Shown here piece after piece: positions 1 through 32,865 of a stretch of 43,884 nt of DNA. Origin of the DNA: Ectobacillus funiculus (GTDB lineage: Bacteria; Bacillota; Bacilli; Bacillales; Bacillaceae_G); NCBI RefSeq assembly GCF_004138295.1, contig NZ_SCFM01000052.1, forward strand, positions 1-43,884, written 5' to 3'. A model generated the notes under the pieces. It was not told the origin of the DNA. It ran no database searches and saw only the letters and a list, made by a program, of their open reading frames with translations. The first letter of the stretch is position 1. Each line of letters starts with the position of its first letter. Made by a program: the position numbers and the translations under genes.

Positions 1-612
1 GCGGCAGAAGCAGCAGACGTACAGGAGCAGCGTGAAATCGTACTGCAGGCACCAATCACAGAAGAACAAATTCGCGAGCTTCGCGTTGGTGATGTTGTTA
101 CGATTAACGGCATGATGTACACAGGACGTGATGCAATTCATAAGCATTTAACAGATAATGATTGTCCGGTTGACCTGAATGGACAAGTGATTTACCATTG
201 CGGTCCGGTTGTGATGAAGGATAGCGAGGGCAAATATCACATTAAAGCCGCTGGTCCGACAACAAGTATTCGCGAGGAGCCATATCAAGGCGACATTATG
301 AAGAAATTTGGCATCCGCGCTGTTATCGGAAAAGGCGGTATGGGAGCGAAAACCCTTGCTGCACTTCAGGAGCATGGCGGCGTATATTTAAACGCAATCG
401 GCGGTGCAGCGCAATATTATGCAGAATGCATCAAGGAAGTAGAAGGGGTAGACTTCCTTCAGTTTGGTATTCCTGAGGCAATGTGGCATTTGCGTGTAGA
501 AGGCTTTAAAGCAGTTGTAACAATGGATTCTCACGGTAACAGCCTTCATGCGGATGTCGACAAAACATCGTTAGAAAGATTGGCACAATTTAAAGAGCCG
601 GTATTTAAATAA
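1..612 (+). CDS. Class I (Fe-S) fumarate hydratase, C-terminal part
   Basis: The 5' end lies outside the window; reading frame 1 is open from the first base to TAA at 610-612, giving about 203 residues. It matches the C-terminal (beta) domain of the [4Fe-4S] class I fumarase / tartrate dehydratase family, which interconverts fumarate and L-malate: 'GPTTSIREEPY' around residues 82-92, followed by 'GKGGMG' and 'LNAIGGAAQYYAECI'. In the single-chain Bacillaceae enzyme this domain follows the cluster-binding alpha domain, which is not visible here. A tartrate dehydratase beta subunit is the alternative, but the upstream extension before the first Met suggests a fused enzyme. The stop codon overlaps the edge of repeat copy A. 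Confidence 0.9.
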   Translation, partial: AAEAADVQEQREIVLQAPITEEQIRELRVGDVVTINGMMYTGRDAIHKHLTDNDCPVDLNGQVIYHCGPVVMKDSEGKYHIKAAGPTTSIREEPYQGDIMKKFGIRAVIGKGGMGAKTLAALQEHGGVYLNAIGGAAQYYAECIKEVEGVDFLQFGIPEAMWHLRVEGFKAVVTMDSHGNSLHADVDKTSLERLAQFKEPVFK

Positions 613-750
613 AGACAACTCGCCGACTGGCGAGCCCTACTTTTGGGCGAAGACAGAGGCGTAGTTGCACTTATACTGGATGCCTAAAATTTCCGACTAC
701 GTCGAATTGGCTTCTAGCTGGAAATTTCTACTTTCCTATAGTGTAAAAAG
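611..750 (-). repeat. Dispersed 130-140 bp repeat, copy A (only minus-strand copy)
   Basis: The reverse complement reads through the family consensus: TACACTATAGGAAAGTA start, AATTCGACGTAGTCGG middle, GCAACTACGCCTCTGTCTTC core, and the closing hairpin CTCGCCAGTCGGCGAG followed by TTGTCTTT. Its hairpin end overlaps the last two bases of the fumarase stop codon. It lies between the convergent fumarase and hsp20 genes. Confidence 0.9.
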
Positions 751-752
751 GG

Positions 753-787
753 AAAAATGACTGGGCGGGTGTCGCTCAGTCATTTTT
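753..787. terminator. Bidirectional intrinsic terminator
   Basis: Perfect 11-bp stem AAAAATGACTG / CAGTCATTTTT around a GC-containing loop, with A/T runs on both sides. It sits just past the 3' end of hsp20 (minus) and downstream of the fumarase (plus), so it can serve both convergent genes. Confidence 0.8.
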
Positions 788-795
788 CGTGGATT

Positions 796-1233
796 TTAAT
801 GGAATTCTACGTGAACTCTTCTTCTTTGATTTTTCATAGACTTCGGCATGCGAATTTCTAGCACACCATTCTTATAAGAAGCTCTTACACCTACATTTGA
901 TACAGGACTTGGAAGCGAAACTACGCGTTGGAAACGGCCGACATAACGTTCTCTCCGATGTGTATTCTCTTCTTTCATCTCGTGGGATTTATGAATTGAG
1001 CCGCTAATCATCAGCATGTCATTTTCAACCTCAATGTCAACATCCTCTTTCTTTTGGAGCCCGGGAATATCACATGTGGCAATAATCTCATTTTCTGTTT
1101 CATGTACATCAACCCGGATACCGCCTATATTATGCTGATTCCCAAAATGAGAAGGGAAGTCCGTAAAGAAATGATCAAATTCCTTTTGCATATTAGCTAA
1201 TTGTCTAAATGGATCGTATGGTATCAATCCCAT
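796..1233 (-). CDS. Hsp20/alpha-crystallin family small heat shock protein
   Basis: A 145-residue protein with an alpha-crystallin domain from about residue 38 to 140: 'IRVDVHETENEIIATCDIPG' opens it, and 'ASYKNGVLEIRMPK' is the A-x(n)-G-V-L signature near its end. The N-terminal arm 'MGLIPYDPFRQL' is typical of bacterial Hsp20, an ATP-independent cytosolic holdase. The start is supported by AAGGAG about 10 nt upstream. Monocistronic, convergent with the fumarase. No CIRCE element is evident in the short upstream region. Confidence 0.93.
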   Translation of the reverse strand: MGLIPYDPFRQLANMQKEFDHFFTDFPSHFGNQHNIGGIRVDVHETENEIIATCDIPGLQKKEDVDIEVENDMLMISGSIHKSHEMKEENTHRRERYVGRFQRVVSLPSPVSNVGVRASYKNGVLEIRMPKSMKNQRRRVHVEFH

Positions 1234-1348
1234 TTGTAACAGCTCCTTTTTTAATAAGATGAAGTGCGCTCTTATTATTTGCGATGTTGAAAAAAGTACT
1301 GTAGAAATGTACTAGCAATTTTCCCTATAAATGGAGCCCAGGAGCGAT

Positions 1349-1432
1349 ATGGAAGAAACTGTGCAGAATGAAGCGAAAGCAGGTAACAAAACCTACGAGT
1401 ACGAACCATTTTGGAAAGGAGACTCGGCATGA
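1349..1432 (+). CDS. 27-residue ORF overlapping the pdaA start (ATGA)
   Basis: ATG at 1349 is preceded by AGGAG (1340-1344). The frame runs 27 codons (begins MEETVQNEAKAGNK, ends FWKGDSA) and stops at TGA 1430-1432, which overlaps the pdaA ATG (1429-1431) as ATGA. That overlap is typical of translational coupling. The peptide is charged, without a membrane segment. Whether it makes a functional small sporulation protein or is only a leader that couples translation cannot be decided from one sequence. An in-frame ATG at 1331 lacks a ribosome binding site. Confidence 0.5.
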   Translation: MEETVQNEAKAGNKTYEYEPFWKGDSA

Positions 1433-2223
1433 AAAAAAGCCTTTGCATCATGACCGTACTCGCATTGTTTTTAGCCTTACTGCCATCCTTTACTTATGCT
1501 TACTCGAACGAGGCGAAGCATTGGGGCATTCCGCGCAACCAGGATGAAACGCCGCCTGATGCAGGAAAAGAGTTTACTTCAATTATTGAAAAATACGATG
1601 GCTTTTATCTTGGTGATACGAAGAAAAAGGACATTTACTTAACGTTTGACAATGGATATGAAAATGGCTATACAGCAAAGATTTTGGATGTGCTAAAGGA
1701 GAAAAAGGTACCGGCGACCTTTTTTATTACCGGTCATTATATTAAAGACCAGCCTGAGCTTGTCAAACGAATGGCGAAGGAAGGGCATATTATTGGAAAT
1801 CATTCATGGCACCATCCGGATTTAACGACCACCGGTGACGAGAAATTCCGCGAAGAGCTTATTATGATTGAAAAGGCTGTAAAGGACCTAACTGGTCAAA
1901 AGGAAATGAAATATCTTCGTCCGCCGCGCGGAATATTTAGTGAACGTACATTGGCAATTTCACGTGAAATGGGCTATCATAACGTTTTCTGGTCGCTTGC
2001 GTTCATCGATTGGAAAACCGAACAACAACGAGGCTGGCGATATGCATATGATAACGTAATGAACCTGATTCATCCAGGATCAATTCTTCTTTTACATTCT
2101 GTATCCAGTGACAATGCGGAAGCACTCAGTAAAATTATCGATGATTTACGGAAGCGGGGCTATCAATTTAAGAGCCTGGATGATTTAGTGAGAGAGAAAT
2201 TTGGTCCAGAGGTGAACTACTAA
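1429..2223 (+). CDS. pdaA: PdaA-type polysaccharide deacetylase (muramic delta-lactam biosynthesis)
   Basis: 264 residues from ATG 1429, chosen over an upstream in-frame TTG at 1411 because GGAAAGGAG lies at the right distance. A signal peptide ('MKKSLCIMTVLALFLALLPS') precedes a NodB/CE4 fold. Motif 1 is 'TFDNGYENGYT' (PdaA family has N in place of the second D), motif 2 'HSWHHPDLT', motif 3 'RPPRG', and the C-terminal motif 'LLLHSVSSDNAEAL'. PdaA removes the acetyl group from muramic acid in spore cortex peptidoglycan, a step toward muramic delta-lactam needed for cortex lysis at germination. Length equals the B. subtilis protein (263). Likely sporulation-controlled; no convincing sigma-G promoter was found. 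Confidence 0.92.
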   Translation: MKKSLCIMTVLALFLALLPSFTYAYSNEAKHWGIPRNQDETPPDAGKEFTSIIEKYDGFYLGDTKKKDIYLTFDNGYENGYTAKILDVLKEKKVPATFFITGHYIKDQPELVKRMAKEGHIIGNHSWHHPDLTTTGDEKFREELIMIEKAVKDLTGQKEMKYLRPPRGIFSERTLAISREMGYHNVFWSLAFIDWKTEQQRGWRYAYDNVMNLIHPGSILLLHSVSSDNAEALSKIIDDLRKRGYQFKSLDDLVREKFGPEVNY

Positions 2224-2473
2224 AAAACCGCAGGCAAGATGCCTGCAGTTTTTTAGTATGAATCGGACTTTTTGTTTGCTTTGCAATTCGAAATTTCCGA
2301 AATACCTTCCAAATACTATAGCCAAGCAATGCGCCAGCGACATTCAGAATAATATCATCAATATCAAACACACCTGCAAGCGTAATGAGTTGAAGCAGCT
2401 CTATATATGTGATTAACCGTATGAACAGAAGAGCGGCTGCTTTTAGGCTCCGTGTGCTGCGGATGCTCCTTTC
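2168..2473 (-). pseudogene. VanZ-like C-terminal remnant
   Basis: On the minus strand a frame is open from an in-frame TAG (2476-2474) to a stop at 2168. The segment contains 'GVFDIDDIILNVAGALLGY', the hallmark C-terminal motif of VanZ-family membrane proteins, preceded by a hydrophobic stretch (LKAAALLFIRLITYIELLQ). There is no ATG before the motif; the only plausible start is GTG 2371, within the motif. VanZ proteins are about 150-200 residues, so the N-terminal half is missing. The region downstream of about 2280 overlaps the pdaA terminator and 3' end and is probably not family sequence. Read as a 5'-truncated relic downstream of padR. Confidence 0.65.
2222..2256 (+). terminator. pdaA terminator
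   Basis: AAAAAACCGCAGGC - AAGAT - GCCTGCAGTTTTTT: GC stem with flanking A and T runs immediately after the pdaA stop. It also lies within the open frame of the VanZ remnant on the other strand. Confidence 0.85.
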
Positions 2474-2784
2474 CTACAGATTTGAATCAGCTCTGTAATT
2501 TGATCCCAAGCGGTTAATTTCTCCTGCAGCTCTAATCGTCCCGCTGCTGTCATACGATAAAATTTCCTTTTCATTTCCGTGTCTGATTCACCCCAATAGG
2601 ACTCAATTAATGCCCGTTGCTCTATGCGTTTTAGAGCGGGATATAAAGTTCCTTGGCTCATGCTGTAGGATTGATTGCTATGCTGCTTCAGCTTCTGCAC
2701 AATTTCATAGCCATATGTATCATGCTGCGCGATGATTGAAAGTAATAAAATGTCAATACTTCCTTTTAGAATCCCTTTATCCAT
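2443..2784 (-). CDS. PadR family transcriptional regulator
   Basis: 113 residues with the PadR winged-helix signature: 'ILLLSIIAQHDTYGYEIVQ' (helix 1), 'MSQGTLYPALKRIEQRALI' (recognition helix and wing) and the 'KRKFYRMTAAGR' wing strand. It then has a short C-terminal helix, so it belongs to the short PadR subfamily that often controls its own operon with a membrane protein. The ribosome binding site is weak. Its partner gene, if it was the VanZ-like ORF directly downstream, is now truncated. The regulator overlaps the remnant's open frame. Confidence 0.9.
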   Translation of the reverse strand: MDKGILKGSIDILLLSIIAQHDTYGYEIVQKLKQHSNQSYSMSQGTLYPALKRIEQRALIESYWGESDTEMKRKFYRMTAAGRLELQEKLTAWDQITELIQICRKGASAAHGA

Positions 2785-3005
2785 ATTTTATAACCCGATA
2801 AAATTGTAACACGACATATATGGGCTGGTTTTACGAAATCCGGCTTGTAACGTATAATAAGAGCTGCATGTTTAAAAGGATGAAAATTATTTAGCTTAGA
2901 GCTAAAACAAGATAATTCATTTTTGGAAATAATAAAGGAAGAATATACGCCGTATGGCAGCTATGCTTCACTAAATGTGTAGAGGAGCATTGAGTAGGAG
3001 GAACC

Positions 3006-4394
3006 ATGGAAACAACGCAAGAAAGTAAATTACAAATGGGACAAACCTTCCCAGTAACCATTAAACGTCTCGGTATTAACGGAGAAGGAGTCGGCTATTT
3101 CAAACGACAGGTTGTCTTCATTCCGGGCGCACTGCCAGGGGAGGAGGTTGTCGCTGAGGTTACTGCAATCAAAAAAGGATTTGCCGAAGCGAAAGTCAAG
3201 CGAATCCGTAAGCAATCTCCGCAGCGCGTGGCACCGCCTTGTCCGGTGCATGAGCAGTGCGGCGGTTGTCAGCTGCAGCATATCTCATATGAAGGACAGC
3301 TCGAACAAAAGCGTGACATTGTTGTTCAGGCTTTTGAACGATATACAAAACAAATTGCTCATAAGCTCGACATCCGCCCGACAATCGGAATGGAGGACCC
3401 ATGGCATTATCGAAATAAAAGCCAGCTTCAGGTTGGTATTGACAACCGCAGAGTCATCGCCGGCTTGTATGGCTTAAATTCGCATGAGCTTGTAGATATT
3501 TCTGATTGTATGATTCAGCACAAGGCAACAAACGAAGTAACGCAAAAGGTAAAACAAATTTTAGAGAACCTTGGTATCTCTATTTACAATGAGAAAAAGC
3601 ATAAGGGCGCAGTTCGCACGATTGTGACGCGCATTGCTGTTCGAACAGGAGAAATCCAGCTTGTGCTCGTAACAGCAAGAGAGGACTTCCCGCGCAAGGA
3701 TCAATTTGTAAAGCAGGTACAAACTGCTCTGCCGCAGGTCAAATCGATTATGCAAAACATCAACGGTGAGCGTACCTCTATCATTTTTGGAGACGAAACA
3801 TTCCGCCTTGCTGGAAAGGAATTTATTCAGGAGGCTTTAGGAGATTTAAAATTTGAGCTATCAGCTCGTGCCTTTTTCCAGCTCAACCCCACGCAAACAG
3901 TGAAGCTATATGATGAAGTAAAGCAGGCAGCAAAGCTAACAGGTAAGGAAAAGGTAGTTGATGCATACTGCGGCGTCGGAACGATTGGATTATGGCTGGC
4001 GAACGAAGCGGCTGAGGTTCGCGGCATGGATATCATTGAAGAAGCAATTGAGGATGCAAAAAAGAACGCGAAGCAGCATGGCTTCCTCAATACGATGTAT
4101 GTGACCGGAAAAGCAGAACAGGTTCTTCCGAAATGGGTGAAGGAAGGATGGAAGCCAGATATCATTGTGGTAGACCCACCGAGAACAGGCTGTGATGGTA
4201 TGTTGCTAAATACAATTTTGAAGGTGAAGCCGAAGCAGGTTGTGTATGTATCCTGTAATCCATCTACCCTTGCGAAAGATGTGGCGAAGCTGCTAGGGGA
4301 TTATGAGGTTTCGTATGTGCAGCCGGTGGATATGTTTCCGCATACGGCGCATGTGGAGTGTGTCTTGCAACTCATTTTAAAGAAAGGCAACTAA
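3006..4394 (+). CDS. rlmCD: 23S rRNA (uracil-C5)-methyltransferase, RlmCD/RlmD (TrmA family)
   Basis: 462 residues; ATG 3006 follows GTAGGAGGAACC. Domains in order: TRAM RNA-binding domain (about 10-70), a cysteine cluster '[11 protein letters not shown]' for the [4Fe-4S] centre, and the SAM-binding methyltransferase fold with '[15 protein letters not shown]', '[10 protein letters not shown]' and the catalytic '[12 protein letters not shown]'. The family methylates U747/U1939 of 23S rRNA; Bacillus genomes carry two paralogues (YefA = RlmCD, and YfjO). I recall yfjO lying next to the dihydrouridine synthase gene yfjN in B. subtilis, as here, so this may be the YfjO orthologue, whose target is less certain. 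The tail [12 protein letters not shown] recurs in two intergenic scraps of this window. Confidence 0.88.
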
Positions 4395-4453
4395 TCCTTT
4401 GTAAAATGTACCCTTTGTAAAGGACACTTTAAAAAAGGTCATGCAGCTCGAAG

Positions 4454-4490
4454 AAGATGATCTCTGTATTGCACAGGGGTCATCTTTTTT
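4454..4490 (+). terminator. Intrinsic terminator after rlmCD
   Basis: AAGATGATC ... GGGTCATCTTTTTT hairpin (one G-U pair) with a T tail, 60 nt beyond the rlmCD stop. Confidence 0.75.
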
Positions 4491-4703
4491 AGCAAAACTT
4501 TATTTTAACTCGAACAGAGGAATGCTAGTTGATAGGGTGGATTTTAGCAAACCCTGATTTCATGAAAATGAACATGTCCGATCAGTTTGATAAAAAGTGA
4601 TGAAGCATGGTATAAGTGTATAGGAAGTAGGAAACATCTTGCTTTTAAATTTTGGGTAAGGGGTTGGCCTGGTATCCCATAATGAGAGGGTTTGAGTTTG
4701 AAT
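4491..4703. other. Intergenic, leader of the dus gene
   Basis: No gene, repeat or strong structure recognised. GAGAGGG at 4684-4690 is the likely ribosome binding site of the next gene. Confidence 0.5.
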
Positions 4704-5687
4704 ATGATAGATAATTTTTGGCGTGATTTACCACGGCCTTTTTTTATACTGGCACCAATGGAAGATGTTACGGATGTTGTTTTTCGCCATGTAGTGAGTG
4801 AAGCAGCCAGACCTGATGTGTTTTTTACAGAGTTTACAAACACGGAGAGCTATTGTCACCCAGAGGGGATCCATAGTGTGCGTGGGCGTTTGACTTTTAC
4901 AGAGGATGAACAACCAATTGTAGCCCATATCTGGGGGGATAAGCCTGAATACTTTCGGCAAATGAGTTTTGGTATGGCAAAACTAGGGTTTAAGGGTATA
5001 GATATCAATATGGGCTGTCCTGTACCTAATGTGGCACAGTACGGGAAGGGGAGCGGTCTTATCCGTCGTCCAGAAGTTGCAGCAGATTTAATACAAGCAG
5101 CAAAAGCAGGAGGATTGCCTGTAAGTGTAAAGACAAGGCTTGGTTACACTGAGATAGACGAATGGCACGACTGGCTGACACACATATTGAAACAAGACAT
5201 TGTCAACCTTTCCATTCATCTGCGTACAAGGGAGGAAATGAGCAAAGTAGATGCTCATTGGGAACTAATCCCGGAGATTAAGAAACTTCGTGATCAGGTG
5301 GCACCAGATACACTCTTGACGATCAATGGGGATATCCCTGACCGTCAAACTGGCTTAAAGCTCGCTCATCAATACGGTATTGATGGGATTATGATTGGGC
5401 GTGGTATTTTCAATAATCCATTTGCCTTTGAAAAGCAGCCGAAAGATCACAGTAGTGAGGAATTGCTTAGTCTCTTAAGATTGCATCTGGATCTCCATGA
5501 TAAATATTCAAAATTGGAGCTGCGTCCGTTCAAGGCTTTTCAGCGATTCTTTAAGATATATGTCCGTGGGTTCCGAGGCGCAAGTGAATTAAGAAATCAA
5601 TTAATGAGTACAGCGTCAACAGATGAAGTGCGTGCATTGCTCGATAACTTTGGGTCAAAGAATCTTGATGGAATGGGGGAACAGTAG
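4704..5687 (+). CDS. tRNA-dihydrouridine synthase (Dus family)
   Basis: About 327 residues, an FMN-dependent TIM-barrel enzyme that reduces uridine in the tRNA D-loop. Seen: '[14 protein letters not shown]' (FMN-binding strand 1), '[12 protein letters not shown]' with the catalytic Cys, 'VSVKTRLGY', '[10 protein letters not shown]', 'TINGDI' and '[12 protein letters not shown]' (FMN phosphate site). ATG 4704 starts '[13 protein letters not shown]'; two in-frame TTG codons (4692, 4698) lie upstream and 4698 has the better spacing to GAGAGG, so the start is uncertain by two codons. It follows the RlmCD-type gene in the same direction, with a terminator between; both act on RNA uracils. Confidence 0.9.
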
Positions 5688-5768
5688 AAGGGCCCAATTC
5701 AAGGTGAAAGCGAAGTAGGACGTTAAACTGGTGTGTCTCCAAAAAGTTAGTGTTTATACTTAGCAGTT

Positions 5769-5820
5769 AATTGGCTGGTGTGAAGGTGGTCCTGAACCGG
5801 ACCCATTCCCGCCAATTTTT
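5769..5820 (+). terminator. Intrinsic terminator after dus
   Basis: AATTGGC ... GCCAATTTTT outer stem with an inner GGTGGTCC / GGACCCA stem, then a T run; about 80 nt beyond the dus stop. Confidence 0.65.
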
Positions 5821-5883
5821 ACTTTATATGTGTTACTACAAGTGAAAAACACAGCTAAATGGCGCTTTAAATGAAATATTGCT

Positions 5884-5919
5884 AAAGGAATCAGGTGTTA
5901 CTGGTTCCTTTATTTTTTT
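5884..5919 (+). terminator. Second intrinsic-terminator-like hairpin
   Basis: AAAGGAATCAGG - TGTTA - CTGGTTCCTTTATTTTTTT: stem and a strong T tail. No intact gene precedes it directly, so it may be left over from a lost gene. Confidence 0.6.
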
Positions 5920-5947
5920 GTAAAATCACCAACACTTCTTGTGTTGT

Positions 5948-5993
5948 CAATTACAGTCCACGCATGTGGAGGCAGTGACAGTGTTAACCTTAA
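5948..5993 (+). pseudogene. Scrap resembling the C-terminal tail of an RlmCD-type methyltransferase
   Basis: In one frame the bases encode QSTHVEAVTVLTLK followed by TAA. The intact RlmCD above ends [17 protein letters not shown], and the 'HVE-x-V' ending is a family feature. Upstream bases (TCACCAACAC...TGTGTTGT) resemble those in front of the other scrap near 26.13 kb. Only about 14 codons can be matched, so this is a weak call. Confidence 0.35.
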
Positions 5994-6006
5994 AATAAAA
6001 GGATTT

Positions 6007-6201
6007 TTAAGGCAATGGATAAAATGTGGTTAATCCCATTTTATCCATTGCCTTTTCAAATTGCTTCCCCGAATTTTTATGCTGTTTCTTGTTGCCTCCC
6101 GGGGTTATATATGAATAGATATCACGAGCTGTTCTTATACTTGAGTCACCAAGCCTAATTGCAACAATCCTTGAGTTTTCTGCAAAAATATGCCTTATTA
6201 G
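6007..6201 (-). pseudogene. Tyrosine recombinase (phage-type integrase) C-terminal remnant
   Basis: 64 codons open on the minus strand between an in-frame TAG (6204-6202) and TAA (6009-6007). The product contains 'LIRHIFAENS', matching the catalytic LRH-x-FA motif of tyrosine recombinases, then 'IRLGDSSIRTARDIYSYI', matching the LGHSS...Y segment with the nucleophilic Tyr, then a charged tail. There is no start codon and no upstream catalytic domain in frame, so it is a relic of a site-specific recombinase, possibly of a lost prophage or integrative element. Confidence 0.65.
6009..6054. terminator. 18-bp perfect hairpin at the recombinase remnant 3' end
   Basis: AAGGCAATGGATAAAATG pairs perfectly with CATTTTATCCATTGCCTT around a 10-nt loop. 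On the plus strand it is followed by TTTTC. It contains the last codons and stop of the recombinase remnant. Confidence 0.6.
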
Positions 6202-6386
6202 CTATCCTGAATATTCCTTGTAATTTTGTTACATGTAAGTGGCTAAAGAAGGTATATATTCAGCATCAAGTACAGACTTTGGTGTAGAGCCTTTAAAGGA
6301 ATAATATCGTTTGTCCAAGCTTTAAAGACTAATAGTAATTATTTTGAGACTTTTATACCATAACTGAACAGGATTGGTGGAAAAGA

Positions 6387-6470
6387 GCAATTTTCTTAAA
6401 GAAAACGGAAAAGTGGCAATATTCTTAATTTTGACAGCAATATTCTTAAAAAACATAGCAATGCTTTTTA
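6387..6470. repeat. Short direct repeats GCAATWTTCTTAA (three plus one degenerate)
   Basis: GCAATTTTCTTAAA (6387), GCAATATTCTTAAT (6416) and GCAATATTCTTAAA (6437), plus a weaker GCAATGCTTTTTA (6458). Starts are spaced 29, 21 and 21 bp. They lie about 190 bp from the recombinase remnant; arm-type recombinase sites are one possibility, chance in A/T-rich DNA another. Confidence 0.45.
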
Positions 6471-6558
6471 ATGACTCCTTTTTTAATAGTTTAATCAAAT
6501 GAAATTATGATAGCAATAATTTTATAAAGGTGCTATATATTCCAAGGATTTGGCTGGT

Positions 6559-6645
6559 ATGGCTTTATTATTTGGTTACTGCATTCGTTTGTCTTCAACT
6601 AGGGGAGCTTGGTTAGGAGTTTTGGTCTTAGCGAGAATACCGTAA
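6559..6645 (+). pseudogene. Possible O-antigen ligase/polymerase (Wzy_C-type) scrap
   Basis: 28 codons encode a hydrophobic stretch with 'LSSTRGAWLGVLVLARIP' before TAA. 'SRGAWLGLLV' is the recurring motif of O-antigen ligase/Wzy_C membrane proteins. The scrap is far shorter than the family (400 or more residues), has no ribosome binding site and is flanked by stops in all frames. Low confidence. Confidence 0.3.
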
Positions 6646-6745
6646 TAGGAGTTTCCTAAAAGACTTATCCTAACATAGAAGTAGGAGTATGAGGGGAAGA
6701 GGTAATGTCAAATCAGCTTATTCAATCAAAAACTCGGAGATAAAT

Positions 6746-12827: not shown

Positions 12828-12862
12828 AAGGGCCACTAAATAAAGTTTAGTGACCCTTTTTT
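12828..12862 (+). terminator. Intrinsic terminator directly before repeat copy B
   Basis: AAGGGCCACTAAA - TAAAG - TTTAGTGACCCTTTTTT: 13-position stem (one mismatch) with T tail. The T run merges into the first bases of the repeat. Confidence 0.8.
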
Positions 12863-12990
12863 ACACTGTAGGAAAGTATAAATTTCTAGCTAGAAGCGAA
12901 TTTGACGAAGGTGGAAATTTTAGGAATACAGTATAAGTGCAACTACGCCTCTGTCTTCGCCTAACGGCTTGCCAGTCAGCGAATCTTCTT
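12861..12990 (+). repeat. Dispersed 130-140 bp repeat, copy B
   Basis: Begins TTACACTGTAGGAAAGTATA, contains the core GCAACTACGCCTCTGTCTTC and ends in a weakened hairpin (CTTGCCAGTCAGCGAA) and TCTTCTT. Its hairpin end is 10 nt from the stop of the gerAC-like gene, which runs the other way. Confidence 0.88.
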
Positions 12991-13000
12991 ATGGAGGTCT

Positions 13001-19073: not shown

Positions 19074-19106
19074 TGTTTTCAAATCTATTAATGATGATGT
19101 AAATTT

Positions 19107-19242
19107 TTACACTGTAAAAAAGGATAAATTTCTAGCTGGAAGCCAATTCGACGTAGTGAGAAATTTGAGGAATACAGTATAAGTGCAACTACGCCTCTGT
19201 CTTCGCCCAAGGGCAGGGCTTGCTAATCGGCGAGTTTTCTTT
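19107..19242 (+). repeat. Dispersed 130-140 bp repeat, copy C
   Basis: TTACACTGTAAAAAAGGATA start, GCAACTACGCCTCTGTCTTC core, end hairpin CTTGCTAATCGGCGAG (one C-G pair replaced by T-G) and TTTTCTTT. Lies between the DUF4386 gene and the histidine kinase. Confidence 0.92.
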
Positions 19243-19397
19243 AACAAGAGAAATAATTGACAGATTATTGCCAAAAATAGAAAAATATAATATATTTATT
19301 ATGGATATAGAGTTGATGCTCTGTTCTAATTGGAAAATTGAAGTAAGTAGTGAAATCTAAAATGGTAACGAATTCTAGAAATGTACGCTAGATTTTA

Positions 19398-26215: not shown

Positions 26216-26270
26216 AACTGCACCCAAATTGTTAGACACAATGACAACTAACAATTTGGGTGCAGTTTTT
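26216..26270. terminator. 20-bp perfect hairpin
   Basis: AACTGCACCCAAATTGTTAG pairs perfectly with CTAACAATTTGGGTGCAGTT around a 12-nt loop, followed by TTTTT. It can end transcription from the response regulator. The arms also vaguely recall terminal repeats of IS3-family elements, but no transposase is present. Confidence 0.75.
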
Positions 26271-26401
26271 TTATATTGTCAGAAAGGATAAATATCTAGC
26301 TAGAAGCGAATTCGACGTGGTCGGAAATTTTAAGAATATAAGTAGGGCTACATCTCTGTCTTCGACCAAGGGCAGGGCTTACCAATCAGCGAGTTTTCTT
26401 T
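26271..26401 (+). repeat. Dispersed 130-140 bp repeat, copy D (most diverged)
   Basis: TTATATTGTCAGAAAGGATA start, TTCGACGTGGTCGGAAATTT middle, CATCTCTGTCTTCG core remnant, end TTACCAATCAGCGAG and TTTTCTTT. Several bases around the GCAACTACG part of the core are missing. Confidence 0.85.
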
Positions 26402-26479
26402 ATTGAGTTTTAGTTTGACATGGTATGCGTTTCATAATTTACACTCATACCAAATAACAGGAAGCGGGGGGAAGCTCTT

Positions 26480-26614
26480 ATGTTTGCATTCATTATACTT
26501 TGCTTTGTTATCTATTTGGCCACTTACTTTTGTTTAAGGGCATCTGGACAATCGATGGAAGTGGAATCAATTCAGTCCATCAATGATTATTTCATTCAAT
26601 CTAATGAGAAATAA
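26480..26614 (+). CDS. 44-residue predicted single-pass membrane protein
   Basis: ATG 26480 follows GCGGGGGGAAG at good spacing. The frame encodes a hydrophobic N-terminal helix 'MFAFIILCFVIYLATYFCL', then a polar tail rich in Ser, Ile and Asp (SMEVESIQSINDYF...), and stops at 26612. No family recognised. It stands alone between repeat copies D and E. The strong ribosome binding site and one clean membrane helix favour a real small protein. Confidence 0.55.
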   Translation: MFAFIILCFVIYLATYFCLRASGQSMEVESIQSINDYFIQSNEK

Positions 26615-26721
26615 CTTTTACCTCTAAGTCAATTTAAATGGTATTGCTGAGAATACTAAAACAAATTCTTGAAAATTTACAATAACCAGTTAGAAAATTG
26701 ACAAGGGGCTACCATCGTTTT

Positions 26722-26858
26722 TTGCACTTTAAGAAAGTATAAATTCCCAGCCAGAAGTTCATTCAGCGCAGTAGGGAATTTTAGAAATAAAGTATATGTG
26801 CAACTACGCCTCTGTCTTCGCCCAAGGGCAGGGCCTGCCAATCGGCGGAGTTTTCTTT
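26722..26858 (+). repeat. Dispersed 130-140 bp repeat, copy E
   Basis: TTGCACTTTAAGAAAGTATA start, full GCAACTACGCCTCTGTCTTC core, end hairpin GCCAATCGGC and TTTTCTTT. Its hairpin ends about 15 nt before the LacI start codon, so it forms the immediate 5' leader of that gene. Confidence 0.92.
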
Positions 26859-26873
26859 AAAAAAGGTGAGTGT

Positions 26874-27833
26874 ATGACAAATATTAAAGACTTGGCAAAG
26901 ATGGCTGAAGTATCTGTCACAACAGTTTCCCGTGTATTGAATAATCACCCGTATGTCAGTGAAGAAAAACGGAAAGCTGTTTTAGAGGCGATTAAGGTCA
27001 GTAATTATCATAAAAATATAAATGCTGTTCATTTAAGTAAGGGAAAAACACAGCTGATGGGTGTAGTTCTTCCTTTTTCGGATCATCCTTATTTTGCTCT
27101 ATTATTAAAGGGGATAGCCAAGCAGGCATTGGAACATAACTATAAGTTGGTCTTATTTCAAACTGATTACATGGAGAGCAGAGAAATGGAAGCTCTGCAA
27201 ATGTTAAAGCAAAAACAGATCGATTCATTAATTATTTGCTCGAGAGCCTGTGATTTGTCTACGATTGAAGAGCATTTGCCATTTGGACCAATTGTATTAT
27301 GTGAAAGCATTACAAATGGAAAAATAGCATCCACTTTTGTAGACCAATACAAAATTTTCTCTGAAGCATTAGAATATTTGTATCATAAAGGTCATGAAAA
27401 AATTGGGTATTGCATTGGCAGAAGATCAGGAGCAAATAGTCATGATCGGAAGCGTGCATATAAGGATTTTATTGCAAAATATAATTTATCATACAATCCT
27501 GACTATATTATTGATGAGTGCCTATATTTTGAGGACGGTGAAAAAGTCATCAAACAAATAAGTGAAATGGATACACCGCCATCAGCATTACTAGTTACAA
27601 ATGATCAAGTCGCATCCGGAATTGTTACCTGCTGCCACAATCAAAATGTATCCATACCCGATGAACTTGCGATAATCGGTTTTGATAATCAACCGATAGC
27701 TCAAATGATGAATATTACAACAATAGACTTGCCTCTTGAGGAGATGGGAAACAGCCTTTTTCTTCAAGCTGTAAATGGGGATGTATCCAATCAGGAAATG
27801 TTTGTTAAGCTAATTGAGAGAGGAACTGTTTAA
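26874..27833 (+). CDS. LacI family transcriptional regulator
   Basis: 319 residues from ATG 26874 with AAAGGTGAG upstream; the frame extends upstream only into repeat copy E. The N-terminal HTH and hinge read 'IKDLAKMAEVSVTTVSRVLN', followed by a periplasmic-binding-protein-like core: 'LMGVVLPFSDHPYFALLLKG', 'DSLIICSR', 'HEKIGYCIGR', 'PSALLVTNDQVASGI' and 'IPDELAIIGFDNQPIAQMM'. Such proteins repress sugar genes until a sugar ligand binds. The HAD phosphatase and the oxidoreductase downstream are candidate targets. Copy E lies where its promoter or leader should be. Confidence 0.93.
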   Translation: MTNIKDLAKMAEVSVTTVSRVLNNHPYVSEEKRKAVLEAIKVSNYHKNINAVHLSKGKTQLMGVVLPFSDHPYFALLLKGIAKQALEHNYKLVLFQTDYMESREMEALQMLKQKQIDSLIICSRACDLSTIEEHLPFGPIVLCESITNGKIASTFVDQYKIFSEALEYLYHKGHEKIGYCIGRRSGANSHDRKRAYKDFIAKYNLSYNPDYIIDECLYFEDGEKVIKQISEMDTPPSALLVTNDQVASGIVTCCHNQNVSIPDELAIIGFDNQPIAQMMNITTIDLPLEEMGNSLFLQAVNGDVSNQEMFVKLIERGTV

Positions 27834-27934
27834 GCGTGTGTATCTGCCGCTGTTTATGGTTTTGATGCATTATAACGAGAATGACTTAAAGCAATTGAGA
27901 CTAAACAAATTATATACCGAAAGTTGGGACAGAA

Positions 27935-28714
27935 ATGATGGAACGAAGTGTTATCTTTTTTGATATAGATGGAACCTTGCTTACTCATGATAAAGACTTG
28001 CCCTCTTCAACAAAAGAAGCCATTTTTGAATTAAAGGAACAGGGGCATGAAGTAGCTATCGCAACAGGACGAGCTCCTTTTATGTTTGAGGATTTGCGAA
28101 AAGAATTGGATATTCGTACTTTTGTTAGCTATAACGGCCAATACGTCGTGTTAAATAATGAAGTATTATATGCAAACCCATTAAATATCCCATCTCTTGA
28201 GAGGTTAACAGAAGCAGCTCTTCACAACAATCATCCTGTTGTTTTTATGGATCATGAAGATATGAAGGCGAACGTTCCAGAGCATAACTATATTAAGGAA
28301 AGCATTGCTACTCTAAAAATTAGCCGTTTTCCTGCGCATGATCCGCATTATTACAAGGGACGCGAATTGTATCAAACCCTGCTTTTTTGCCCAGAGGGAG
28401 AAGAACAGCAATACGAACAGGAGTTTCTGGATTTTGATTTTGTGAGATGGCATCCTGTTTCAGTCGATATTCTCCCAAAGGGGGGATCAAAAGCTAAAGG
28501 GATTGAAAAGCTCGTTGAAAAACTAGGATTTCCAGAAGAGCGTCAATATGCCTTTGGGGATGGATTAAATGATATCGAGATGCTCTTAGCTATAAAAAAT
28601 AGCGTGGCAATGGGGAATGCGGAAGAAACGGTTAAGGCTGCTGCAAAGTATGTTACAAAATCTGTTGAAGATGATGGAATTCTTCATGGTCTTCAAATGG
28701 TGGGTTTGTTATAA
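27935..28714 (+). CDS. Cof-type HAD-IIB family hydrolase
   Basis: 259 residues. HAD motif I 'FFDIDGTLLTHD', motif II 'AIATGR', the C2B cap, motif III Lys near 'PKGGSKAKGIEKL' and motif IV 'AFGDGLNDIEML'. Cof-like phosphatases act on sugar phosphates and nucleotide cofactors in the cytosol; the substrate is open. Two adjacent ATG codons (27935, 27938) are possible starts with a weak GGGAC site. It is 101 nt after the LacI gene in the same direction, so the two may be cotranscribed. Confidence 0.92.
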   Translation: MMERSVIFFDIDGTLLTHDKDLPSSTKEAIFELKEQGHEVAIATGRAPFMFEDLRKELDIRTFVSYNGQYVVLNNEVLYANPLNIPSLERLTEAALHNNHPVVFMDHEDMKANVPEHNYIKESIATLKISRFPAHDPHYYKGRELYQTLLFCPEGEEQQYEQEFLDFDFVRWHPVSVDILPKGGSKAKGIEKLVEKLGFPEERQYAFGDGLNDIEMLLAIKNSVAMGNAEETVKAAAKYVTKSVEDDGILHGLQMVGLL

Positions 28715-29166
28715 CCTTAGAAGATAGATACTTTATTCCGTTTTCTATTCATTGTATTATCTAAAACCGAGTATTCAAAAACATTGGTATCATATAACAA
28801 TCCCTAGTGTTATTTGCTACTTGTGAGGGAGGATTCGTAAAAGATATAGGTATGAGTATCAGAGCCTTCTCGTTTGAGGAGGCTCTTATTATTTAGGATG
28901 GACCTTTAATGCAAAAGAATTTAGAAAGGTTTTATAAGTTTCAAAACGAACTGCGTATCAATGGTAAGAGGAATTTTACTTTTCTGCCATTAAAGTTGGT
29001 AGATGCAAAAATTAATTCATCTCTTTTTTGAGTATCCTATAGTGCAAGATTGTGAAGTTTTTTTGGAAAATAGTTACTAAGTTTCTGTCAAAATGCGGTT
29101 TTTCTACTGCTACAAAAATAAGATATTAGAGGTTATTAATGGAAAAAAGACTATAATTTTAACTAT
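28715..29166 (+). other. Intergenic region with terminator
   Basis: A hairpin AGAGCCTTCTC - GTTT - GAGGAGGCTCT at 28861-28886 with a T-rich tail probably ends the LacI/HAD transcript. A 40-codon frame from ATG 28909 has only a poor ribosome binding site and no recognisable features. The rest is A/T-rich. Confidence 0.6.
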
Positions 29167-29180
29167 AGCAAACGCTTACA
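29167..29180 (-). promoter_or_regulatory. cre site, full consensus match
   Basis: The minus strand reads TGTAAGCGTTTGCT, matching TGWAARCGYTWNCW at every position, 43 bp upstream of the oxidoreductase start. CcpA repression in the presence of preferred sugars is expected. Confidence 0.8.
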
Positions 29181-29222
29181 AAAAATTAAAAATAAAATCA
29201 AAATTTCAAAAAAGAGGTGCTT

Positions 29223-30425
29223 ATGATGTTAAATGGTGAAAAGAAAATTGCAAGACCTTTCAGATGGGCGATGATAGGTGGAGGCCGATTAAGTCAGGTT
29301 GGATATAAGCATAGAACGGGTGCATTAAGAGATAATACTGCTTTTACCCTAGTGGCAGGAGCTTTTGATATTGATGCAGAACGAGGGAAAGAATTTGGAG
29401 CAAATCTCGGCGTTAATGAAAATCGCTGCTATTCTGACTACAAAACAATGTTTGCTGAAGAGGCAAAGCGAGAGGATGGGATTGAGGTTGTCTCTATTGC
29501 GACTCCGAACGGAACTCACTATGAAATTTGTAAGGCCGCGTTAGAAGCTGGTTTACATGTTATTTGTGAGAAACCTTTATTCTTCACTTCTGAAGAAGGT
29601 GAAGAAATTAAAGAATTGGCGGAGAGAAAAGGAAAAATTGTTGGGGTAACATACGGTTTTTCTGGAAATCAAATGCTGCTTCAAATGCGGGCAATGATCG
29701 AGCAAGGAAAAATTGGTGACATTCGTATGGTCGAACTGCAGTATACGCATGGCTTTAGTGCAAATGATGCAACAGATAAAACAAGTGATGCGCAAAAATG
29801 GCGTGTTGATCCTAAGGTTGCAGGTCCAAGCTTTGTGTTAGGGGATCTTTCTACACATACCTACTATATGTCCCAGCTGATTATGCCGCAGATGAAAATT
29901 AAGAAGTTATTATGTGACCGCCAGAGCTTTGTGGGAAGCCGCGCTCCTTTAGAGGATAATGCTTATGTTCTCATGCATTATGAAAACGGAGCAGTAGGAA
30001 GACTTTGGACATCCTCTGTCAATGCAGGATGTATGGATGGGCATAGAATTCGCATTGTAGGATCGAAGGGAAGCCTAGAGTGGTGGGATAACAAAGGCGG
30101 CGAACTTAGATATGAAGTGCAAGGTGAGCCTGCCCAAACTTTAATTCGTGCAATGCCTTATTTAGATGATAGCTGCAATGCTGATGAACGTTTAGGGGCG
30201 CTGCATGTAGAAGGCTTGTCTGACTCTTGGGCAAATATTTATCTCAAATTTGCCATTGCGATGGATGCTAAAAACCGAAATGATGACGAAGCATTAAAAA
30301 ATCTTGTTTACCCTGATATGAATGCTGGCTTGGATGGCATTCGCTGGATTGAAAATTGTGTTCGCTCTGCAGATAACGGATCGACTTGGGTAGAGTTTGA
30401 GCATGAAAAGGCTGCATTAGTGTGA
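29223..30425 (+). CDS. Gfo/Idh/MocA family oxidoreductase
   Basis: About 400 residues; ATG 29223 or 29226, with AGAGGTG upstream. N-terminal Rossmann domain with 'WAMIGGGRLSQVG' and the family's 'GLHVICEKPLFF' (catalytic Lys of the EKP motif), then the GFO_IDH_MocA C-terminal fold with 'GPSFVLGDLSTHTYYMSQLI' (the G-x-x-x-D-x-x-x-H pattern). These NAD(P)-dependent enzymes act on sugars, inositols or their derivatives. It is transcribed alone, under a full-consensus cre site, and terminated at 30631-30655. The substrate is unknown. Confidence 0.92.
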   Translation: MMLNGEKKIARPFRWAMIGGGRLSQVGYKHRTGALRDNTAFTLVAGAFDIDAERGKEFGANLGVNENRCYSDYKTMFAEEAKREDGIEVVSIATPNGTHYEICKAALEAGLHVICEKPLFFTSEEGEEIKELAERKGKIVGVTYGFSGNQMLLQMRAMIEQGKIGDIRMVELQYTHGFSANDATDKTSDAQKWRVDPKVAGPSFVLGDLSTHTYYMSQLIMPQMKIKKLLCDRQSFVGSRAPLEDNAYVLMHYENGAVGRLWTSSVNAGCMDGHRIRIVGSKGSLEWWDNKGGELRYEVQGEPAQTLIRAMPYLDDSCNADERLGALHVEGLSDSWANIYLKFAIAMDAKNRNDDEALKNLVYPDMNAGLDGIRWIENCVRSADNGSTWVEFEHEKAALV

Positions 30426-30630
30426 AAATTTTTGTATCACTAGAGTATTGGAGAGCATGTGCTGAACAGAAAACCGGTTAAATAAAAATTGAAAGCTCAT
30501 CAGTCAAAATAGCAAAAAAACAACACTCAAAGTGATATAGTATTACGATTTGCAGGCAGTATCATTGGACAATCCCTGATGTGAAAATAGAAAAAAATAA
30601 AGTATGAAGCTATAAAAATAATTATAAACA

Positions 30631-30660
30631 AAAGGTGCTTCGGGGAAGCACCTTTATGTT
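30631..30660 (+). terminator. Terminator after the oxidoreductase
   Basis: AAAGGTGCTTC - GGG - GAAGCACCTTT, perfect 11-bp stem followed by ATGTTT. Confidence 0.75.
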
Positions 30661-30695
30661 TATATATGCAATATATAGTGTAGCCTTTATTTTGC

Positions 30696-30830
30696 TTACA
30701 CTTTAAGAAAGTATAAATTTCTAGCCGGAAGCCAATTCGACGTAGCGAGAAATTTTAGGAATACAGTATAAGTGCAACTACGCCTCTGTCTTCGCCCAAG
30801 AGCAGGGCTCGCCAATCGCCGAGTTCTTTT
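30696..30830 (+). repeat. Dispersed 130-140 bp repeat, copy F
   Basis: TTACACTTTAAGAAAGTATA start, complete GCAACTACGCCTCTGTCTTC core, end CTCGCCAATCGCCGAG and TTCTTTT (one stem mismatch). The hairpin end is 13 nt from the stop codon of glpF on the opposite strand. Confidence 0.92.
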
Positions 30831-30843
30831 ACAGAGTAATTAC

Positions 30844-31668
30844 TTATGCCGCCTCTGACTTCGAAAGCGTTTGCTTTTGTTTTCTCACTCCTGAAAGATA
30901 CGATAAAATTAATACAAGGATAGTTAGGACTAATGTAATCAACAACTGAGAGAGCATTTTTCCTTGAAACACACTGTTATAAAAGAATCCGCCTAGGCAT
31001 CCGCCAAGAATAGGTCCTACAACTGGTATCCAAGCATAGCGCCAATTCGAATCTCCTTTACCTGGAATGGGTAATAGAAAATGTGCGATTCTCGGTCCTA
31101 AATCACGGGCTGGATTCATTGCGGCACCAGTCGATCCACCTAAAGATAATCCGAGCGTAATAATTAAGAAACCAACAGCTAATGGATGGAGACCATCAGT
31201 AAACTTATTGGCACCAATAGAGAGTATTCCTAAAACGAGAATAAAAGTTCCTAATATCTCACTTAAAATATTCGAAAACGTATGCTGAATAGCTGGACCC
31301 GTTGAAAAGACACCAAGTATAGCTTTTGGATCTTTTGTTTCTTTCCAGTGAGGCAAATATTGTAGGTATACTCCTGCCGCACCGATCATTGCGCCTGCAA
31401 ACTGAGCTATTATATAGATAGGTACCTGATACCAGGGCAAATCCCCTGAAGATGCAAGAACCAAGGTTATAACTGGATTCAAATGGGCCCCGCTGAATTT
31501 CCCTACAGCAAAAATGGCTGTAGCCACCGCGAATCCCCAGGCAAATTGAATTGCCAACCAGCCTGCATTATAAGCAAAAGACTTTTTTAGAGAAGCGCCG
31601 GCACAGACACTTCCTCCTAAAAAAATTAAAATGGCAGTACCGACGACTTCTCCCCAAAAGGCAGTCAT
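30844..31668 (-). CDS. glpF: Glycerol uptake facilitator (aquaglyceroporin GlpF)
   Basis: 274 residues, the same length as B. subtilis GlpF as I recall it, and very similar from 'MTAFWGEVVGT' through 'LGVFSTGPAIQHTF' and 'NPARDLGPRIAHFLLPIPGK'. Six helices and two half-helices. The second selectivity motif is the normal NPA (MNPARD, with the Arg typical of glycerol channels), but the first is NPV (residues 64-66, HLNPVI) instead of NPA. ATG 31668 follows AAAGGAG. glpK and glpD are not adjacent: the gene stands alone between repeat copies F and G. Confidence 0.92.
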   Translation of the reverse strand: MTAFWGEVVGTAILIFLGGSVCAGASLKKSFAYNAGWLAIQFAWGFAVATAIFAVGKFSGAHLNPVITLVLASSGDLPWYQVPIYIIAQFAGAMIGAAGVYLQYLPHWKETKDPKAILGVFSTGPAIQHTFSNILSEILGTFILVLGILSIGANKFTDGLHPLAVGFLIITLGLSLGGSTGAAMNPARDLGPRIAHFLLPIPGKGDSNWRYAWIPVVGPILGGCLGGFFYNSVFQGKMLSQLLITLVLTILVLILSYLSGVRKQKQTLSKSEAA

Positions 31669-31720
31669 GACTAACTCCTTTCTATCTAAAGGTTTGAGAT
31701 TAGACAGTAATGTTTTGATC

Positions 31721-31850
31721 TATAATAAAATGTAAATTTCTAACTGAAAGCCAATTCGACGTAGTCAGAAGTTTTAGGAATACAGTATACGTGCAACTCC
31801 GCCTCTGTCTTCGCTCAATGGCAGGGCTCGCCAATCCGCGAGTTGTCTTT
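31721..31850 (+). repeat. Dispersed 130-140 bp repeat, copy G
   Basis: TATAATAAAATGTAAATTTC start (diverged), GCAACTCCGCCTCTGTCTTC core, end CTCGCCAATCCGCGAG and TTGTCTTT. Its last two bases are part of the stop codon of the GntR gene on the opposite strand, and its other end faces the glpF promoter. Confidence 0.9.
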
Positions 31851-32559
31851 ATAACACATGACTATTCGCTTGGATAAAGAACTGTGATTGTTGATAGTTA
31901 TAAGTGATTTTTGAAAAGTCGAATGGCTGGCCATTAGTTAGATGAATAATACTTTCAACGTCAAGTTTAGGTGCTCCATTCTCTAAACCTAAATACTCCG
32001 CTTCTTCTTCATTCAACTTATCTACACGAAGATATGAGTCTGAAAAACCAATCTTTAAGCCTAATCCTTCTCTTATATAATTAAATATTGATTCACAAAC
32101 AATTTCTTTATTCAAATAGGTGATGATCGATTTATTATAATAGGATTCCTCCAAACATAATGTTTGCCCGTTAATATACCGAATTCTTTTTACATAATAG
32201 ATATCGTCATCGAGTCCAATATTTAAATTATGAGCTGCTTCTTGTGTTGGTTTTCTCACATCTAATTCAATTACTTTTGAAGTTATATTAAAATCCTCAA
32301 GATCCTTTTTGAATCCTTGATTAGTAAGAAGGCTAATATATCCTTTTCTCTTAAGTCTTCTAACAAAAATTCCACTGCCTCTGACTTGGAATATGACTCC
32401 TTTTTTCTCTAACAGATCTAACGATTTCGTAATTGTACTCTTACTCACTTCAAATTGCGCCATTAATGCTTCTAATACTGGCAGTTTATCTCCTTGTTGG
32501 AGTGCATTATCTTCAATATACTTTTCAATTTCTGTTACAATTTGCTGGTATTTTAGCAT
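31849..32559 (-). CDS. GntR family regulator, HutC/UTRA subfamily
   Basis: About 236 residues. ATG 32559 is preferred because GCGGGGA then has six bases of spacing; ATG 32565 is directly against it. The GntR winged helix includes 'DNALQQGDKLPVLEALMAQF' and 'VSKSTITKSLDLLEKKGVI', and the UTRA effector domain 'DIYYVKRIRYINGQTLCLEE', 'ESIFNYIREGLGLKIGFSD' and 'LGLENGAPKLDVES'. Relatives (TreR, GmuR, BglR) repress PTS operons and respond to the sugar phosphate. The probable targets are the two TACCGGTACAAT palindromes upstream of the beta-glucoside PTS gene. Confidence 0.92.
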   Translation of the reverse strand: MLKYQQIVTEIEKYIEDNALQQGDKLPVLEALMAQFEVSKSTITKSLDLLEKKGVIFQVRGSGIFVRRLKRKGYISLLTNQGFKKDLEDFNITSKVIELDVRKPTQEAAHNLNIGLDDDIYYVKRIRYINGQTLCLEESYYNKSIITYLNKEIVCESIFNYIREGLGLKIGFSDSYLRVDKLNEEEAEYLGLENGAPKLDVESIIHLTNGQPFDFSKITYNYQQSQFFIQANSHVL

Positions 32560-32599
32560 ATACATTCCCCGCTAGTTTATTTATTTCACTTTCTTTTAT

Positions 32600-32729
32600 T
32601 TACACTGCAAGTATAAATTTCTAGCTAGAAGACCATTCGACGTAGCAAGAAATTTTCAGAATACAGTATAGGTGCAACTCCGCCTCTGTCTTCACCCAAA
32701 TGTAGGGCTCGTCAATCGGCGAGTTTTTT
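32600..32729 (+). repeat. Dispersed 130-140 bp repeat, copy H (tandem with I)
   Basis: TTACACTGCAAGTATAAATT start, GCAACTCCGCCTCTGTCTTC core, end CTCGTCAATCGGCGAG and TTTTTTT. It joins copy I head to tail without extra bases; the C-to-T change in the stem is compatible with a G-U pair. Confidence 0.92.
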
Positions 32730-32865
32730 TTACACTGTAAGAAAGTATAAATTTCCAGCTAGAAGCCAATTCGACGTAGTCGGAAATTTTAGGAATACAG
32801 TATAAGTGCAACTCCGCCTCTGTCTTCGTCCAAATGCAGGGCTCGCCAATCGGCGAGTTTTCTTT
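32730..32865 (+). repeat. Dispersed 130-140 bp repeat, copy I (tandem with H)
   Basis: Close to the family consensus throughout: TTACACTGTAAGAAAGTATA start, TTCGACGTAGTCGGAAATTT middle, GCAACTCCGCCTCTGTCTTC core, hairpin CTCGCCAATCGGCGAG, tail TTTTCTTT. It lies between the GntR gene and the PTS promoter. Confidence 0.93.

Follow-up and report, generated by a model that had tools for sequence, protein, structure and literature searches.

What is a non-coding repeat that occurs nine times within a short stretch of a bacterial genome, and how did its copies come to lie where they do? This question is raised by a contig of Ectobacillus funiculus (NZ_SCFM01000052.1, positions 1 to 43,884; hereafter "the window", meaning this whole stretch of 43,884 nucleotides), in which a structured repeat of ~134-138 bases is found at nine sites (copies 1 to 9; Table 1). 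Because its ends, its target, the absence of a target duplication and its orientation relative to the replication fork all fit such a model, we consider it probable that this is a mobile, non-autonomous element, ~134 bases long, that has moved as single-stranded DNA in an IS200/IS605-like manner, with targeting resembling that of group IIC introns. We do not claim membership in IS200/IS605, in the group II introns or in the bcr1 family of repeats discussed below.

The nine dispersed copies described in the initial annotation are all real. The 20-base core of the element matches the window eight times (five exact matches and three with one mismatch), compared with 0.00 matches expected from 100 shuffles, and an alignment of repeats within the window agrees: seven plus-strand copies align at full length, the copy at 26271 aligns in two parts, and the minus-strand copy at 610-747 appears as an inverted repeat with 81-92% identity. 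The copy at 26271 is degraded, with a 5-base gap and an altered core, and the one at 12861 lacks a clean right end. The coordinates first assigned were good to a few bases, except for the copy placed at 31721, which starts at ~31714.

The same element is spread throughout the host genome (5.45 Mb in 146 contigs), where an exact 17-base core occurs 243 times and its reversed control not once. A profile built from the nine copies, rebuilt twice and run on 2.43 Mb of host contigs, returned 557 matches, of which 380 are near full length; element matches cover 2.7% of the sequence scanned. As these contigs hold 136 of the 243 exact cores, we estimate ~995 copies per genome, scaling by cores and not by length because the scanned contigs had been picked among copy-bearing ones. 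The suggestion of hundreds of copies per genome was thus, by this extrapolation, too low. The copies lie mostly in intergenic gaps: of 300 clusters, 285 were tallied by gap, with crude open reading frame (ORF) calls serving as genes, 13 lie inside ORFs and two have no neighbor. Two unlinked copies have the same sequence over 134 bases but differ in their flanks. Otherwise, the nearest non-local relative of a copy is 0.908 identical on average, and an identity of at least 0.98 is reached by only four of the 380 copies (two pairs). With so few near-identical non-local relatives, the main burst of spread is not recent, and the enzyme responsible may be gone.

The boundaries of the element are distinct in character. 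It runs from CAC at the left to TTTTCTTTA at the right, and its right end is formed by a hairpin plus TTTTCTTTA. In isolated copies, conservation breaks off sharply after TTTTCTTTA, with each base of the terminal TTTA retained in 89-93% and the next base a T in only 46%. The left flank of these copies is merely T-rich up to CAC, with A in 64%; the four bases ahead of the junction are TTTA in 90 of 225 copies, TTTG in 27 and TTTT in 19.

Comparison between related genomes reveals sites without the element. Locus L119, at which genome G008 carries a copy, was compared with 12 other genomes of its genus and is empty in seven, as seen by alignment in G018, G013, G004 and G017 and by match coordinates in G014, G011 and G010. 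The empty site consists of TTTATTTTA joined straight to the right flank, and the occupied site of TTTATTTTA, the element and the same right flank. A decayed copy is present in G007, and in G015, G012, G009 and G016 the alignment does not extend across the site. At a second locus, with a copy in G011, the site is empty by coordinates in G014, G007 and G015 (11 bases matching both ends) and probably empty in G012 (seven bases matching both ends); in six other genomes the match spans the element, and in G009 and G016 the site is again not spanned by an alignment. Neither locus, the one aligned and the other compared by coordinates, shows any sign of target duplication or loss. Within the host genome, we found no clean paralogous empty site among 52 junction-crossing matches from 299 joined flanks, many of which represent the edge of the copy itself or other copies.

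The empty sites in relatives, the sharp right end and the identical pair at unlinked sites bear out the initial idea of a miniature mobile element. A classical miniature inverted-repeat transposable element (MITE), bounded by terminal inverted repeats, flanked by target duplications and moved by a DDE transposase, would also be small, non-coding and present in high copy number. However, we see no terminal inverted repeat when the left end CACTGTAAG is compared with the right end GAGTTTTCTTTA, and the aligned empty sites lack a target duplication. The empty sites make a classical MITE unlikely, and on the whole we give this explanation very little credence. IS200/IS605-type elements insert 3' of such a short motif, leave no target duplication and have a right end that itself ends in the motif; the present element shows this pattern, with a looser motif at the left.

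The sites occupied by the element are preferentially, not invariably, located behind intrinsic terminators. As terminator-like we counted a hairpin score of at least 14 for a stem beside a T-tract just ahead of the junction, a score that overlooks long-armed hairpins such as those at L119, L107 and L127. By this measure, 106 of the 225 isolated copies have a terminator-like hairpin ahead of the junction, compared with 4% after mononucleotide shuffling, 6% in sequence taken 70 nt upstream and 5% in sequence taken downstream. The score is reached by 307 of 2,400 unoccupied intergenic sites with a T-rich TTTA motif (12.8%) and by 28 of 70 copies chosen to match that motif. The share also varies with context, from 62% where both neighboring genes are co-oriented with the element to 40% where only the upstream one is. 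In other genomes, the hairpin precedes 22 of 41 copies, some of them orthologous or arrayed, compared with two in shuffled sequence and none upstream. The earlier notion of a spreading terminator module therefore holds in another sense than was meant: insertion tends to occur behind terminator-like hairpins, and the right end of the element has that form.

This likeness between right end and target is mirrored in how copies adjoin one another. All 99 of 99 abutting pairs are arranged head-to-tail, and neighboring units in arrays are spaced by 134 bases in 57 of 80 steps. The two units of a dimer have a mean identity of 0.85, compared with 0.81 for random copy pairs; in 27 of 33 dimers the units are no more alike (≤0.903) than the 95th percentile of random pairs, and six dimers are closer than that. 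Hence, most dimers look like separate insertions. Runs of identical units are present in all eight arrays of at least four units, which suggests local expansion of the arrays. That they grow head-to-tail could be explained simply by the right end, which itself consists of a hairpin, a T-tract and TTTA.

The orientation of the element tracks the replication fork rather than transcription. Full copies are aligned with the leading strand, as defined by GC skew, in 318 of 380 cases, or 248 of 300 by cluster. Since genes share this bias (1,268 of 1,590 ORFs), the agreement alone proves little. Gaps between convergent or divergent genes, in which transcription gives no direction, are informative: 48 copies point with replication and 14 against it in convergent gaps (p 1.7e-5), and 38 and five, respectively, in divergent gaps (p 2.5e-7). 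Free T-rich TTTA sites are evenly divided (171:165 in convergent and 287:311 in divergent gaps), as are free sites with a hairpin (41:38 and 23:19). The bias recurs in other carriers, with 47 of 49 copies agreeing with replication on the main contig of G015 (one copy on C2 excluded) and 25 of 29 in G008 if the terminus is placed halfway, or 22 and 24 under two other cuts; in both genomes, the skew in eight 5-kb samples fits the assumed replication arms. Because copies point with the leading strand, it is mostly the lagging-strand template that contains the element's top strand, as expected of an IS200/IS605-type element. IS608 and ISDra2 target the lagging-strand template and have subterminal hairpins and a flanking tetranucleotide (PMC6006769, PMC5371812; published work is cited here and below from excerpts of each source).

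The same two habits could also point to a retroelement, that is, a terminator-ended structured RNA that a reverse transcriptase copies into DNA at sites behind terminators, as in group IIC introns. Group IIC (bacterial-C) introns are reported to insert immediately downstream of rho-independent terminators, with a preference for the lagging-strand template (PMC8919778), and the element studied here likewise has a conserved, RNA-like fold. Unlike these introns, however, it has only 134 bases, encloses no reverse transcriptase and has no match to a group II intron model in the window at the Rfam gathering threshold; searching Rfam with one dimer (341 bases) gave seven weak matches (best 20.8 bits, compared with a cut-off of 50), with no group II family among them. 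The element also lacks a GUGYG-type start, a motif of group II introns. Furthermore, the reverse transcriptase domain RVT_1 does not track the element, being absent from G013 (31 copies), G012 (six) and G009 (two), and the one examined of two host RVT_1 genes has at its C-terminus what we take to be an HNH-like motif, unlike class C. Taken together, a retroelement appears rather unlikely.

The fold itself is conserved, and we checked it for covarying base pairs, as the initial annotation had proposed. Within the predicted layout, the A/T stem pairings ACTGTA/TACAGT and AAATTTC/GAAATTT and the closing hairpin are backed by covariation, and the GCCC/GGGC stem is weaker, its last pair being C-G in 231 rows and T-C in 50 in the host genome. 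There, standard-pair covariation is found at pairs 9-70, 28-54 and 26-56. Across 44 sequences from several genera, 85.7% of cells are paired, compared with 22-51% for slid partners, and the covariation score is 0.213, compared with 0.02-0.07. In the same sequences, 12 pairs are altered on both sides, compared with 9.7 in shuffles (52 of 500 reach 12), and 31 further pair types compare with 30.4, neither being a clear excess; helix 4 is poorly supported (58.9% paired). The fold of a single copy is mildly more stable than that of shuffles (z -1.70 as DNA and -1.78 as RNA), with 10 of 200 shuffles folding as well as DNA and 12 of 200 as RNA. Subterminal hairpins are present at both ends, as in IS200/IS605 elements. 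The window matches no Rfam family at gathering score, and neither a lack of covariation nor a lack of excess over background was found. For the initial idea of a processed RNA family the evidence is mixed: the fold is conserved, but the element is oriented by replication rather than by transcription, and the stability of a single copy exceeds that of shuffles only mildly. The strongest column correlation in the host genome is between positions 103 and 111, mainly a change from C-G to T-C; as this is not standard pairing, we rejected it as a base pair, and it may mark a subfamily.

Such a conserved fold could alternatively belong to an RNA or back-up terminator module that the host maintains, recombination having spread it and selection on gene expression having preserved it. 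A scan that found nine terminators, compared with 5.2 expected, called one at the right end of three of the six copies it covered (copies 5, 7 and 9), and bcr repeats are transcribed in two B. cereus strains (84 of 165 and 62 of 155; PMC3446304). Against this module stand the orientation, which follows replication in convergent and divergent gaps, the variation of both compared positions between species of one genus, and the fact that three congeners of the host have no match to the element. We therefore regard it as improbable.

In a sampled survey of the order, with strict filters and at most 11 matches scored per genome, model R2 matched 74 of 299 genomes (host included) and 41 of 116 genera. 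Thirteen of 19 genomes of the same family have matches, namely the host and 12 of the 13 genomes of genus g2, the latter with 2-50 copies each. Among 80 named loci, three contain copies, those of Neobacillus rhizophilus, Neobacillus citreus and Bacillus sp. Marseille-Q3570. An earlier hint of similar sequences in related Bacillaceae is thus borne out by genus g2, Neobacillus and Bacillus. A phage collection gave no match at E≤1e-5, and viral contigs contain no exact 20-base core. The plasmid collection, even at E≤10, yielded one matching record, labelled Arthrobacter citreus NEB 577 (CP053689.1, L339). Over 3,135 bases, this record and a contig of G015, which belongs to the host's family, are 100% identical, and to judge by that sequence its label is probably wrong. 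The match also removes the ground for taking genus g2 for the B. cereus group.

This distribution bears on the relation to bcr1 of the Bacillus cereus group. The element could be a representative of that family outside its group, moved by the same mover as bcr1, a possibility that is compatible with movement as single-stranded DNA and to which we give a little less than an even chance. The bcr elements measure 100-400 bp, are mostly chromosomal and have a TTTAT motif, and the most abundant of them, bcr1, averages 39 copies per strain (PMC6542083); the size of bcr1 is given as 147 bp, with a predicted structure in B. anthracis (PMC2267715). The present element has TTTA at both ends, more loosely at the left, and the copy numbers noted above for another genus, and it resembles bcr1 (group A, bcr1-bcr3) in size range, intergenic location, high copy number, MITE-like character and structure and, less clearly, in its TTTAT-type ends (PMC6542083, PMC3446304, PMC2267715, PMC3733652). 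The comparison is based on size, ends and habit. The element differs from bcr1 in its host genus and in its ~1,000 copies, compared with a reported maximum of 130 integral ones. Moreover, published descriptions confine bcr1 to the B. cereus group; no searched genome is known to belong to that group, yet matches occur in 41 of the 116 sampled genera, and the host itself, judged by one protein, has Ectobacillus antri (92%) and E. panaciterrae (88%) as its closest named relatives. It is also said to occur on some plasmids, and the single plasmid matched here is the Bacillaceae one labelled Arthrobacter. The collection searched presumably includes B. cereus-group plasmids. We know of no enzyme for bcr1-type repeats. 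They have long been called mobile, and a site-specific recombination-like mechanism is the only one proposed in the excerpts (PMC6542083). Our literature searches turned up neither terminator targeting nor fork orientation for repeats of the bcr type, and the consulted passages of the bcr literature are silent on both, although the primary bcr1 papers may say more; within these bounds, the terminator preference and the replication-following orientation of such repeats are new here.

We propose the following mechanism. At replication forks, the element would move in single-stranded form at the lagging-strand template, with hairpins recognized as single-stranded DNA by an HUH (Y1, IS200/IS605-like) enzyme that, we infer, acted in trans and is now lost or unrecognized. 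Insertion would take place 3' of a T-rich tract, most often one ending in TTTA, and tracts preceded by a hairpin, i.e. intrinsic terminators, would be favored. Since the right end (the hairpin plus TTTTCTTTA) resembles the element's own target, later copies would land behind earlier ones, head-to-tail, and the resulting pairs would then be expanded by replication or recombination. A bolder version, which we put forward only tentatively and think less likely to be right than wrong, is that of a terminator-homing miniature transposon whose enzyme, distinct both from recognized Y1 transposases and from the reverse transcriptases of group II introns, reads "hairpin plus T-tract" as fork-exposed single-stranded DNA, so that every intrinsic terminator and the right end of the element itself would be potential targets.

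Several observations weigh against the proposed mechanism. The left motif is loose, with TTTA in just 90 of the 225 isolated copies, and TTTA at both ends leaves the exact cut uncertain by those bases. Of the same copies, 119 fall below the hairpin score, and the hairpin share is 25-30% where the upstream gene points away. A preceding hairpin is evident for only three of the nine window copies, five others having T-rich flanks without an evident adjoining hairpin. In gaps between tandem lagging-strand genes, the orientation bias is 15:8 and not significant (p 0.21). The remaining points concern the enzyme. No intact Y1 transposase was found in the host genome, where 17 candidates were scored and two fragments seen, and there is no Y1 match in the carriers G009, G010, G012, G014 and G015 (2, 31, 6, 18 and 42 copies, respectively). 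As to an autonomous partner, nine left-end/right-end pairs lie within 6 kb of each other in the 2.43 Mb, and none of the seven read, which exclude two on C103, is convincing, five having large gaps of apparent ordinary genes and two having short gaps. Finally, among 30 Y1 loci of other genomes, from a longer list, only L287 has a model match below E 1, ~0.9 kb beyond the Y1 gene.

Other carriers do have Y1 matches (G026, with 38 copies and four Y1 matches, and also G004), and with matches in some carriers and none in others, the presence or absence of Y1 does not decide. Neither Y1 nor reverse transcriptases show a clear correlation with the element. Hairpin-plus-T matches at the Y1 loci L279 and L284 were taken for chance. 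A Y1 transposase remnant lies directly downstream of a truncated element copy in the host genome (L145 1189-1310 and following), a proximity that may be due to chance; separately, an ORF of 126 residues at L146 1993-2373 (minus strand) is composed largely of GMGMGGFP-like repeats. As candidate guide sequences, which in IS200/IS605 elements lie 5' of each hairpin foot and are complementary to the cleavage motifs, the element has an almost unvarying TAAA close to where the left hairpin begins to pair, and at the right a TAAAG that is common in other genera and mostly lacking in the host genome.

Among known systems, the element resembles PATEs and the ends of ISDra2. The likeness extends to IS200/IS605 ends in general and to the non-autonomous REP/TnpAREP system, with end hairpins, duplication-free insertion 3' of a motif, a right end that ends in the motif and lagging-strand orientation (PMC6006769). 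It differs from these in having no Y1 gene that is linked to it or intact in the host genome and in a target that often includes a host terminator hairpin. SPRITE, BOX and RUP of Streptococcus pneumoniae are likewise small repeats that insert into one another, SPRITE being terminator-like (PMC10969869); their host is unrelated, and the comparison is one of description, not of sequence.

In the window (Table 1), copies 1, 2 and 4 adjoin terminator-like hairpins, and copy 9 begins where copy 8 ends. Two copies overlap a stop codon with their right end: copy 7 that of the opposite-strand GntR-type gene (31849-31851), and copy 1 that of a gene with a fumarase C-terminal domain (610-612). These insertions lie exactly at gene ends. 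The longest reading of the ORF at 26796-27833 begins within copy 5 (26796-26857); the true start is probably further down, with copy 5 just upstream of that gene.

Table 1. Copies of the repeat and adjoining terminator-like hairpins in the window.
Feature	Positions	Strand	Basis or remark
Copy 1, full	610..747	-	Core match and repeat alignment; preceded by terminator-like hairpin
Terminator-like hairpin ahead of copy 1	753..787	-	Letters checked
Terminator-like hairpin ahead of copy 2, behind class II aldolase gene	12830..12856	+	
Copy 2, altered right end	12860..12997	+	Core match and repeat alignment
Copy 3, full	19106..19243	+	Core match and repeat alignment
Terminator-like hairpin ahead of copy 4, behind LuxR-type response regulator gene	26218..26265	+	
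Copy 4, degraded core	26270..26402	+	Repeat alignment
Copy 5, full	26721..26857	+	Core match and repeat alignment
Copy 6, full	30695..30831	+	Core match and repeat alignment
Copy 7, full; right end abuts stop of opposite-strand GntR-type gene	31714..31851	+	
Copy 8, upstream unit of head-to-tail dimer, short left end	32598..32732	+	
Copy 9, downstream unit of dimer, starting at right end of copy 8	32729..32866	+	

The target preference, the replication-bound orientation and the target-like right end make the proposed mechanism testable by a plasmid assay. Terminator homing is a safe-haven strategy, and in the excerpts consulted it is tied to group IIC and a few related introns (PMC8919778). 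If our interpretation is true, terminator homing would also be a habit of a ribozyme-less DNA of 134 bases, which would mean either that this habit arose more than once or that single-stranded terminators are a general landing pad.

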